Origin: Minisyncoccota bacterium
GTDB taxonomy: Bacteria > Patescibacteriota > Minisyncoccia > Minisyncoccales > CG1-02-41-26
Direction of reading: 5' to 3'
NCBI GenBank assembly: GCA_028718965.1
Contig: JAQUKS010000006.1
Span: 1 to 41,762 of the forward strand
Length of the DNA stretch: 41,762 nt
A program made the position numbers and the translations under genes. Shown one piece after another: positions 26,970 to 30,608 of this stretch. The first letter of the stretch is position 1. The number at the start of each line of letters is the position of its first letter. Below the pieces are notes generated by a model. The model was not told where the DNA came from and did not search any database. It saw only the letters and a program-made list of their open reading frames with translations.

Positions 26970-29900
26970 TTAATTTTGTTTCATTTTACTAATCATGTCC
27001 CTGATCTCGGCGGCTCTTTCGAAGTCAAGGTCAGCGGCGGCTTGTTTCATTTCTTTCTCAAGAAGCTTGACGTCTTTGATTACCGCCAACTCGGCGTTTA
27101 CTGATTTTTCTTTTTCAGCAAGCTGCCATTTTTTGATTTCCTTAATGATCGCTTCCGGCTTAATGCCGTGTTTTTTATTATAATTTTCCTGTATTTTCCT
27201 GCGTCTTTCCACTTCCCTGATTGCTGCTTTCATTGAGCCGGTGATTTTATCGGCGTATAGAATAACGCGGCCATTCAGGTTACGGGCGGCCCGGCCCATG
27301 GTTTGGATTAAAGTCGTTTCGTTGCGCAAAAAGCCTTCTTTGTCAGCGTCCAATATGGCCACCAAGGCGACCTCGGGCAAATCAAGGCCTTCTCTTAGCA
27401 GATTAATGCCGATGATGACGTCGTATTCGCCTTGCCTTAATTTGTTCAATATCTCCGGCCGCTCCAATGTTTTTACCTCGGAATGAAGGTATTGCGCTTT
27501 GATTCCCTGCTCTTTCAGATATTCGGCCAGCTCTTCGGCCATTCTCTTGGTAAGGGTCACTGCCAGAATCCGTTCGTTCCTCTGCCGGGCTTTTTTGATT
27601 TCTTCGATTAGATTTTTTACCTGGTTTTCCGTTGCTCGTATTTCTATTTTGGGCTCCAACAATCCGGTCGGCCGCACCAACTGCTCGACTATCATTCCGC
27701 GGCCGGCCTGGGCAACTTCATGGGGCCCGGGCGTGGCTGAAACATAAATCGTCTGTTTGGTTTTCTCTTCAAACTCGTCAAATTTGAGCGGCCGGTTATC
27801 CAGGCACGAAGGCAGGCGGAAGCCGTATTCGATGAGCACGTTTTTTCTGGCTTTGTCGGTGTTATACATCGCGTGCAATTGGGGAACGGTAATGTGCGAT
27901 TCGTCGATGATTGTAAGGTAATCTTCGGGAAAGTGCTCCAAAAGGCAGAAGGGCGTTGAGCCTGGTTCCCTGAACTCGAAATAGCGCGAGTAGTTTTCTA
28001 TGCCGCTGCAATATCCGGCTGACTGGATCATTTCCAGGTCATAATTGGTTCTTTGCTCCAGCCGTTGCGCTTCGACAAGCTTGTTTTGCTTTTTCAGTTC
28101 AGCCAGCCTGATGTCCAAATCGCCGCGGATGCCCCCAATAGCGGTTTTTATTTTGGCTTCTTCGGAAACCCAGAACTTGGCCGGGAAGATGCGGTAGCTT
28201 GCCGCCCGTGATCCGGAACGCGCGGACGCGTAAGGGCGCAGAGGCAGCCCATCTCCCGCTGCTTTTTCTTCGGTTATTTTCTCGACTTGATCGTTAAAAA
28301 AATCCAGGCGCAGAATCCGCTGGCCGGTTACCAGATGAATTTCAACGGTATCGCCTCTCACTCTGAAGCTTCCCGGTTTGAAGTCAATGTCGTTTCTTTG
28401 ATATTGCAAAGCGACCAGATGGCGTAAAAATTCCTGCCGTTTCATTTTTTGCCCTTGCGCTATGTCCAGAGAAACTTCCTGATATTCCTGGGGCGAGCCG
28501 ATGTTATAAATACACGAAACCGATGCCATCACGATTACGTCTTTTCTTTGCGCCAGATCCTGCACTGCCGCGTGGCGCAGTTGGTCGATTTCTTCGTTGA
28601 TTTTGGCGTCTTTTTCAATATAGGTGTCGGTTGAGGGCAGGTATGCCTCGGGCTGGTAGTAGTCATAATAGGAAACGAAATAATGCACCGCGTTATTCGG
28701 GAAAAATTCCTTGAATTCCTGATAAAGCTGGGCGGCCAGAGTTTTGTTTGCGACTATGACCAGCGCTGGTTTCTGGGTATTGTTTATAACATTGGCTATC
28801 GTGAATGTGTTATGCACGAACATTCCGCCATTACCAGCTAAAAAAGTTTCGTTATCTTTAACAGCGAAATCATAAACATATTCTTTTTTTGATTCCGTCT
28901 TTTTTATTTCGGCGATTTTTGTCCATTTGCAATTAAGGAGACTTTTTAAATCTTGTATTTCTTTATTGCTTGGAGAAAGGGTCAATAGCCCGTTAGTCAT
29001 TAGCTCAAATGTTTTACGCCTTGGACTGTTGGCTCCTATTTCTATGGCATTTATCGTGCCTTGCGAGAGTTTGCATTTCTCTGCGAGAGTCTTTTGGCTT
29101 ATTCCTATTTTTTTTCTGATTGTTTTTATAACAGGCCCAACATCAGGTATTACATCAACATTTGTAGCGCTTGAACCGTCCAAGAGCTTTAGTAACCTTT
29201 TTTGTTTTTCAGGCACATCAAAACCAATATATTTTTTGAATTTTTTTACATTATCGTATCCGGATATAACCAAATACCAATAATAGCTTCCTTTGTGCGA
29301 TGGCGAATTGGTGGCACGATTCCATGATTTGTTTATTCGCGCCCAAATTCCAAATCGAGCTAACGCATAAGCAAGATCAGATGCTAATTGTTTGCTGGCA
29401 GTAGGAGCGATTATTTGTTTTTGTTTTTCGAATGCCCCCCCATCGCCATCGAAGTATGCTTTTAAAACCACAGCGAGTTGTTTTTGGGAAAGATTCGGCC
29501 AAAAATGGGGTAATTTTTTCGTGCGCGCTTTGCTGCCCATTAAATTCACCAATAAGGTTGTATGGATTTTTGATCCGATAGAGAAATCATTTATTTTTCT
29601 ATAGGGGTTTAATTTTAGTTTTCTGAAAATCCTTTCTAGTTGCTTCCTGATAGCTTGATGTTCCGCGGTGATTGTAAAAAACCTTGATTTTACCTCGCCA
29701 TGCCCTTCAGCCAAATAGTATCCAAATAGCATTAGCCATTCTTTTGTGAGGGATAATTTGGCTGGCAACGTATGGCTATGGATTTGAGATCCAATCACGA
29801 TTTTTTTGATTTCCTCATCGGCCAAATTTATATTTAAATCTTCGGCTATTTGGCAAAGGCGTAGGAATGGAATACCCCGATAGCGCCCGCTTTTAATTTG

Positions 29901-30608
29901 ATAAAGCTTTTGCCAAGGAAAAACAAAATGTTTTTCCATTGCCTTTGCTATTTCCGCTGGTTTTTTCGATAAGAGGGCTTTCAGTATAAATGGCTTCGCG
30001 TCTACAAACAGGTTTTCATTTTTTAATATTTTTAGGATATTAATTTGTGCAAGATCATTTTTTGATGTTTCTATCTGTATTGGTAGTGGAATATGGTCGA
30101 TGTTTTTTATTTTTTCCGTAGGGACAAGGATAAATTTACCGTGGCGCAGTATAAAGAAGTTGTGGTCGCCAGTGGTGATTACTTCGCGTCCGCATTTTGT
30201 TTTTACGTGGAAAAGATTTTTAGGAGAGCGATGGCGGATGAGTTGAGTTATCGGTCGCCATTCGCTTGTTTTGGTTTCGGGGCTTAAGCTAAACGTTTCT
30301 ATAAACAATTCTTTTTTAATCTGGCCAGCTGTTAAGATTTCTGTTCCTTCTTTTTGCTTTATTAAATTTGAGTATTTTTTAAAAAGTCCATCGATGAATG
30401 GTCCGATTTGGCAATTTATAACCTTTCCATTTTGTTTGATAAAAACTGGAGTTTCGCCAATTACGCTTTTACCTGATCCTGTAACACCTAAAAGCACCTG
30501 ATCTTCTTTTCCGGCCAGAATGTTCTTTGTCAATGCGTCGATGGCTTGGGGCTGATCCCCCGCGGGCTTGAATTTTGCGACTAATTCAAACATAGTAGAG
30601 TAAAACAA
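26970..30608 (-). CDS. uvrB: UvrABC system protein B, interrupted by an intein
   Basis: UvrB extein motifs (FELVAKFKPAGDQPQAIDAL, VSYYDYYQPEAYLPSTDTYIEKDAKINEEIDQLRH, EGLDLPEVALVAILDADKEGFLRN, C-terminal UvrB/C motif); 1212 aa in total, 659 aa after intein removal. Confidence 0.97.
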   Translation of the reverse strand: MFYSTMFELVAKFKPAGDQPQAIDALTKNILAGKEDQVLLGVTGSGKSVIGETPVFIKQNGKVINCQIGPFIDGLFKKYSNLIKQKEGTEILTAGQIKKELFIETFSLSPETKTSEWRPITQLIRHRSPKNLFHVKTKCGREVITTGDHNFFILRHGKFILVPTEKIKNIDHIPLPIQIETSKNDLAQINILKILKNENLFVDAKPFILKALLSKKPAEIAKAMEKHFVFPWQKLYQIKSGRYRGIPFLRLCQIAEDLNINLADEEIKKIVIGSQIHSHTLPAKLSLTKEWLMLFGYYLAEGHGEVKSRFFTITAEHQAIRKQLERIFRKLKLNPYRKINDFSIGSKIHTTLLVNLMGSKARTKKLPHFWPNLSQKQLAVVLKAYFDGDGGAFEKQKQIIAPTASKQLASDLAYALARFGIWARINKSWNRATNSPSHKGSYYWYLVISGYDNVKKFKKYIGFDVPEKQKRLLKLLDGSSATNVDVIPDVGPVIKTIRKKIGISQKTLAEKCKLSQGTINAIEIGANSPRRKTFELMTNGLLTLSPSNKEIQDLKSLLNCKWTKIAEIKKTESKKEYVYDFAVKDNETFLAGNGGMFVHNTFTIANVINNTQKPALVIVANKTLAAQLYQEFKEFFPNNAVHYFVSYYDYYQPEAYLPSTDTYIEKDAKINEEIDQLRHAAVQDLAQRKDVIVMASVSCIYNIGSPQEYQEVSLDIAQGQKMKRQEFLRHLVALQYQRNDIDFKPGSFRVRGDTVEIHLVTGQRILRLDFFNDQVEKITEEKAAGDGLPLRPYASARSGSRAASYRIFPAKFWVSEEAKIKTAIGGIRGDLDIRLAELKKQNKLVEAQRLEQRTNYDLEMIQSAGYCSGIENYSRYFEFREPGSTPFCLLEHFPEDYLTIIDESHITVPQLHAMYNTDKARKNVLIEYGFRLPSCLDNRPLKFDEFEEKTKQTIYVSATPGPHEVAQAGRGMIVEQLVRPTGLLEPKIEIRATENQVKNLIEEIKKARQRNERILAVTLTKRMAEELAEYLKEQGIKAQYLHSEVKTLERPEILNKLRQGEYDVIIGINLLREGLDLPEVALVAILDADKEGFLRNETTLIQTMGRAARNLNGRVILYADKITGSMKAAIREVERRRKIQENYNKKHGIKPEAIIKEIKKWQLAEKEKSVNAELAVIKDVKLLEKEMKQAAADLDFERAAEIRDMISKMKQN
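28809..30467 (-). mobile_element. Intein (553 aa) in the UvrB Walker A motif, with LAGLIDADG-type homing endonuclease
   Basis: Starts Ser1 (SVIGETPVFIKQNGKV), contains VKTKCGREVITTGDHNFFI (block B TxxH), LMLFGYYLAEGH and VVLKAYFDGDGG (dodecapeptides), ends YVYDFAVKDNETFLAGNGGMFVHN followed by Thr+1. Flanks rejoin as GVTGSGK/TFTIANV. Confidence 0.95.

Follow-up and report, generated by a model that had tools for sequence, protein, structure and literature searches.

Results

Organisation of the uvrB locus

The stretch of DNA analysed here (41,762 nt; referred to as the window, in whose numbering all positions are given) carries a single uninterrupted ORF on the minus strand at 26970-30608, which spans 1212 codons with zero internal stops and reads ...LLGVTGSGK|SVIGETPVF...GGMFVHN|TFTIANV... 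on translation. In a profile search, TIGR00631 matched both flanks of the insert in one frame (profile positions 2-44 and 34-658). When the C-extein was aligned to the solved Bacillus UvrB chains 2fdc and 1d9x, its first residue corresponded to chain residue 46, which places the insert after the Walker A lysine (45) and before threonine 46. The original prediction of a 553-aa insert at 28809-30467 that splits UvrB exactly after this lysine agreed with the ORF translation in both borders. The features of the ORF are as follows.

30468..30593, minus strand: UvrB N-extein, ending in GVTGSGK (Walker A); likely ATG start, alternative TTG at 30608; TIGR00631 positions 2-44
28809..30467, minus strand: 553-aa intein at the UvrB P-loop site, Ser1 to Asn553 (junctions, profiles, alignment, model)
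30084..30467, minus strand: N-terminal half of the splicing (HINT) domain, residues 1-128, with Ser1 and block B T99-G-D-H102 (profile, alignment and model)
29163..29744, minus strand: LAGLIDADG homing endonuclease domain, residues about 242-435 (profile and model)
29703..29729, minus strand: LAGLIDADG motif 1, LFGYYLAEG, catalytic acid E254 (motif reading)
29439..29465, minus strand: LAGLIDADG motif 2, LKAYFDGDG, catalytic acid D342 (motif reading)
28998..29129, minus strand: Cro/XRE-type helix-turn-helix (HTH) accessory domain, residues 447-490 (HTH_3)
28809..28931, minus strand: C-terminal half of the splicing domain with blocks F and G, residues 513-553, VYDFAVKDNETFLAGNGGMFVHN (profile and alignment)
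26970..28808, minus strand: UvrB C-extein, first residue Thr+1 (TFTIANV), equivalent to residue 46 onward of the solved Bacillus UvrB chains

The 659-aa spliced UvrB first proposed presupposes translation from the TTG at 30608. Initiation from the ATG at 30593 is more likely, since the sequence around it is conserved in a same-genus homologue, and would give a spliced product of 654 aa. ruvA lies head to head with uvrB and is followed by a Mur-ligase-like gene; the ATGs of the two divergent genes are 19 bp apart (30593-30613), so that promoters and ribosome-binding sites would have scant space. A 1654-aa ORF (21970-26934, plus strand) located upstream of the uvrB region showed no Pfam match at 1e-5.

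The host genome is of the Patescibacteria (CPR) type and is reduced (865 kb in 48 contigs, 96% complete). It contains one copy of uvrB, together with uvrA and uvrC, and no second uvrB was found in this 96% complete assembly by the TIGR00631 profile search. A genome of the same genus (G001) has the same gene arrangement with a syntenic, uninterrupted uvrB whose empty site reads GVTGSGK|TYSIANV; the exteins of the window UvrB are 83% (N) and 75% (C) identical to this protein. An empty site of the kind that the original prediction had proposed to look for was present within the genus. A second intein occurs elsewhere in the window's genome, in the V-type ATPase A subunit (L113 / L002, contig C42), where it ends HN|TVVQHQ and apparently occupies the known P-loop VMA-b site.

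Sequence motifs and predicted fold of the insert

The insert matched the Pfam families Intein_splicing (PF14890; 1.7e-18), LAGLIDADG_3 (PF14528; 2.7e-18) and HTH_3 (6e-8) as well as NCBIfam intein_Nterm, so that the profile search proposed as a check of the prediction returned splicing matches at the intein termini. It is in frame, and the conserved site that it occupies is uninterrupted in homologues. All the class-1 splicing residues are present (Ser1, block B TxxH, terminal His-Asn and Thr+1), and Ser1, His-Asn and Thr+1 were the residues on which the original splicing chemistry had been built. We read 27 same-site UvrB inteins in full, and the alignment counts given here refer to those 27. 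S1, T99, H102, V531-Y532-D533, H552 and N553 were invariant, and Thr+1 was found in 27/27. Both LAGLIDADG motifs of the window intein retain their catalytic acids (E254 and D342); both acids were kept in 23/27 inteins, and an HTH_3 match was likewise obtained in 23/27. Cys92, a non-catalytic residue near block B, is present in most but not all homologues.

An AlphaFold model of the intein was obtained with a pLDDT of 92.7 and a pTM of 0.91, and Foldseek matched it to inteins, which together with the PF14890 match indicates a HINT fold. Its best PDB folds were PI-TkoII 2cw7 (3.8e-29), TliVMA 7qss, PI-PfuI 1dq3 and PhoVMA 7qst. The model of the whole precursor of ~1200 aa was of low confidence (pTM 0.50; junction pLDDT <50). 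A class-3 intein was ruled out as Ser1 is invariant and block F of the window intein has no Cys (WCT set), and a bacterial intein-like (BIL) domain was ruled out by the host, a single-copy UvrB, and by the invariant HN|T.

Distribution of same-site inteins

Strong UvrB matches were obtained in 173/247 genomes of the order. Besides the window, only three genomes (G197, G192 and G235) among the matches listed showed the signature of the insert, namely a match starting from profile position 40-41 in a frame of ~1205 aa, and their sequences confirmed a same-site insert. Other split UvrB matches in the order were considered as further intein sites and rejected as a set: nearly all lay either in normal frames of ~670-740 aa or in short frames that may reflect contig ends or frameshifts. 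In the phylum sample, 4/380 genomes matched; the UvrB intein is, therefore, rare and patchy.

To cover GTDB, 84,980 genomes were searched with a degenerate junction pattern, His-Asn|Thr-Phe-Thr-[Ile/Met]-Ala-Asn. This gave 43 matches, 35 of them in frame within UvrB; the other eight lay outside UvrB and were discarded as chance matches. Since the C-extein is fixed by the pattern, 35 is a lower bound. CPR hosts comprised Staskawicz-, Portnoy-, Parcu-, Magasanik-, Doudna-, Sung-, Pace- and Saccharibacteria; other bacterial hosts were Cyanobacteria, Chloroflexota, Thermomicrobiota, Aquificota, Rhodothermota, Pseudomonadota, Nitrospinota and WOR-3, and archaeal hosts were Woese-, Micr-, Loki- and Hodarchaeal genomes. 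Two same-site inteins are shortened: that of a Nitrospinota genome (L041:2691-3563, 291 aa) has lost the LAGLIDADG domain and kept the HTH, and that of Longimonas (L072:5715-6506, 264 aa) has lost both. The order of the window's host looks intein-rich, with GyrB, FtsK, FtsH, RecA, ribonucleotide reductase and helicase inteins in other genomes (L016-L027). A scan of the viral contigs of IMG/VR with the intein alignment (tblastn) found no relative, and a phage vehicle is therefore without support.

Phylogeny and base composition

In the intein tree, the window intein grouped with two Staskawiczbacteria inteins with a support of 100/100. Twenty-six of the 27 UvrB inteins fell on one side of a branch supported at 94/95, the exception being a Woesearchaeota intein (L049), and a single UvrB-intein clade was not rejected by the AU test (p 0.47). 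VirB4 P-loop inteins of the same order formed a separate neighbouring clade, and GyrB inteins lay far outside. Micrarchaeota and Thermomicrobia inteins nested among CPR inteins, while the UvrBs of these hosts lay elsewhere in the UvrB tree. Such disagreement between the two trees is strong evidence that the intein has been transferred horizontally.

The window intein has a GC content of 37.0% (GC3 33.8%) as against 48.2% (56.8%) for its C-extein, and no other stretch of equal length in the window is as poor in GC. In the Staskawiczbacteria relatives, inteins and exteins are both 35-40% GC. The low GC of the window intein is compatible with a recent entry from a low-GC host; inteins are GC-poorer than their own exteins in most hosts checked, and the contrast in GC, taken by itself, is therefore a weak argument for recent transfer.

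Discussion

The results of this study indicate that UvrB of the window contains a complete class-1 intein in which a HINT domain is combined with a LAGLIDADG homing endonuclease and an HTH accessory domain, and that this intein, inserted at the Walker A motif, is very probably competent in splicing and horizontally mobile as a homing element. Splicing, DNA cleavage and homing are predicted here from conserved residues, domains and trees. Based on these results, we propose the following course. The unspliced precursor would be unable to form the ATP site. Excision would proceed by an N-O acyl shift at Ser1, transesterification to Thr+1 and cyclisation of Asn553 aided by His552, and ligation of the exteins would then yield a normal 654-aa UvrB with the predicted junction GVTGSGKTFTIANV. 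The intein endonuclease is predicted to cleave uvrB alleles that lack the intein, at the codons of the P-loop, whereupon repair would copy the intein in. Conservation of the P-loop DNA, and the fact that imprecise loss costs the host nucleotide excision repair, may explain how the intein has reached unrelated bacteria and archaea in this manner. Placement in Walker A would protect the intein for the same reason, since imprecise loss destroys the ATPase needed for excision repair.

It had also been suggested that splicing could act as a conditional switch on repair. In such a reading, UvrB and nucleotide excision repair would be withheld until splicing answers a stress such as redox change, metal, temperature or DNA damage. 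Until splicing occurs, the insertion necessarily leaves UvrB with no ATP site, and conditional splicing has been described for P-loop or helicase inteins, namely mycobacterial DnaB and P. horikoshii RadA (PMC6195587, PMC7360933 and PMC5790916). However, the nucleophile of the window intein is Ser1, so that there is no Cys1 for oxidation or zinc binding, although a redox effect through Cys92 is conceivable. The patchy distribution, the empty site in the genus and the conserved nuclease acids point instead to selfish persistence, as does the tree conflict. The switch, thus, found no support in this analysis, and we consider it unlikely. Quite unlikely, too, is the proposal that a regulatory role has preserved the intein, either because the precursor forms a reserve for repair that a signal would release or because the Cro-type HTH of the excised intein binds DNA and regulates or protects the uvrB locus; the HTH kept in the nuclease-less 291-aa Nitrospinota intein is noted in connection with the latter.

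An intein that no longer splices would leave the host with inactive UvrB. Such a state could be imagined in a reduced genome, given that splicing is predicted here from sequence, but the splicing residues are all intact and do not vary among the 27 homologues, the exteins are full length and well conserved relative to the same-genus protein, and uvrA and uvrC have been retained. We, therefore, regard a dead insertion as very improbable. That an intein of another organism was joined into uvrB as an assembly chimera, as the 48 contigs and the deviating GC of the intein might suggest, has next to no likelihood because the junctions are exact and in frame and lie at the same codon as in the two Staskawiczbacteria, whose inteins are 55% identical, and in some 30 others.

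The preferred reading, a splicing and homing intein, extends the list of proteins with P-loop inteins to UvrB, which in bacteria is the central, helicase-like enzyme of nucleotide excision repair. A single insertion site is common to at least 35 genomes from many phyla and both prokaryotic domains, with transfer visible as tree conflict. With the Ser1/Thr+1 pair and a matched empty-site allele from within the genus, both splicing and homing can be tested directly.

Comparison with known inteins

P-loop inteins in DnaB, PcrA/UvrD and RecA/RadA have been reviewed (PMC5874633). No description of a UvrB intein was found in the open literature searched, subscription papers and InBase or other intein catalogues being beyond that search; the UvrB P-loop site apparently had not been described before and is widespread once searched for, while the intein itself is of a known type. 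The arrangement of a HINT domain, a homing endonuclease and an accessory domain has been described for TliVMA and PI-TkoII (PMC8966425). PI-TkoII (PI-PkoII, 2cw7) was the best PDB match of the UvrB intein in sequence (profile 4e-58) as well as in fold and is similar in size and domain order, but its host is the DNA polymerase of Thermococcus kodakarensis and the identity over the fold alignment is 19%. TliVMA (7qss) and PhoVMA (7qst) are VMA-b inteins of the archaeal V-type ATPase subunit A, a group treated in PMC8966425, and like the UvrB intein combine a P-loop insertion with HINT, LAGLIDADG and accessory domains. The accessory domain of TliVMA is HTH-like (PMC8966425). TliVMA, the second-best fold match, resides in another host protein, shares 17% identity over the fold alignment and is ~120 aa shorter, the UvrB intein having an extra stretch at residues about 129-241 before the endonuclease.

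Closest of all are the UvrB inteins of Staskawiczbacteria (G197, MHOU01000012; G192, MHOO01000011), which occupy the same site with 55% identity and are sister to the window intein (100/100), differing in their low-GC hosts from another family of the order. Outside UvrB, the nearest kin are the P-loop inteins of VirB4/TraC-type ATPases in CPR genomes of the same order (L009-L014, including the same-genus genome G002). These share the Walker A insertion (GK|S...HN|SY) and an HTH-like region and are sister in the tree, while they differ in host protein, in having Ser+1 and in forming their own clade (100/100). This sister relation of the UvrB and VirB4 inteins suggests a lineage specialised for P-loops that may have crossed between host genes.
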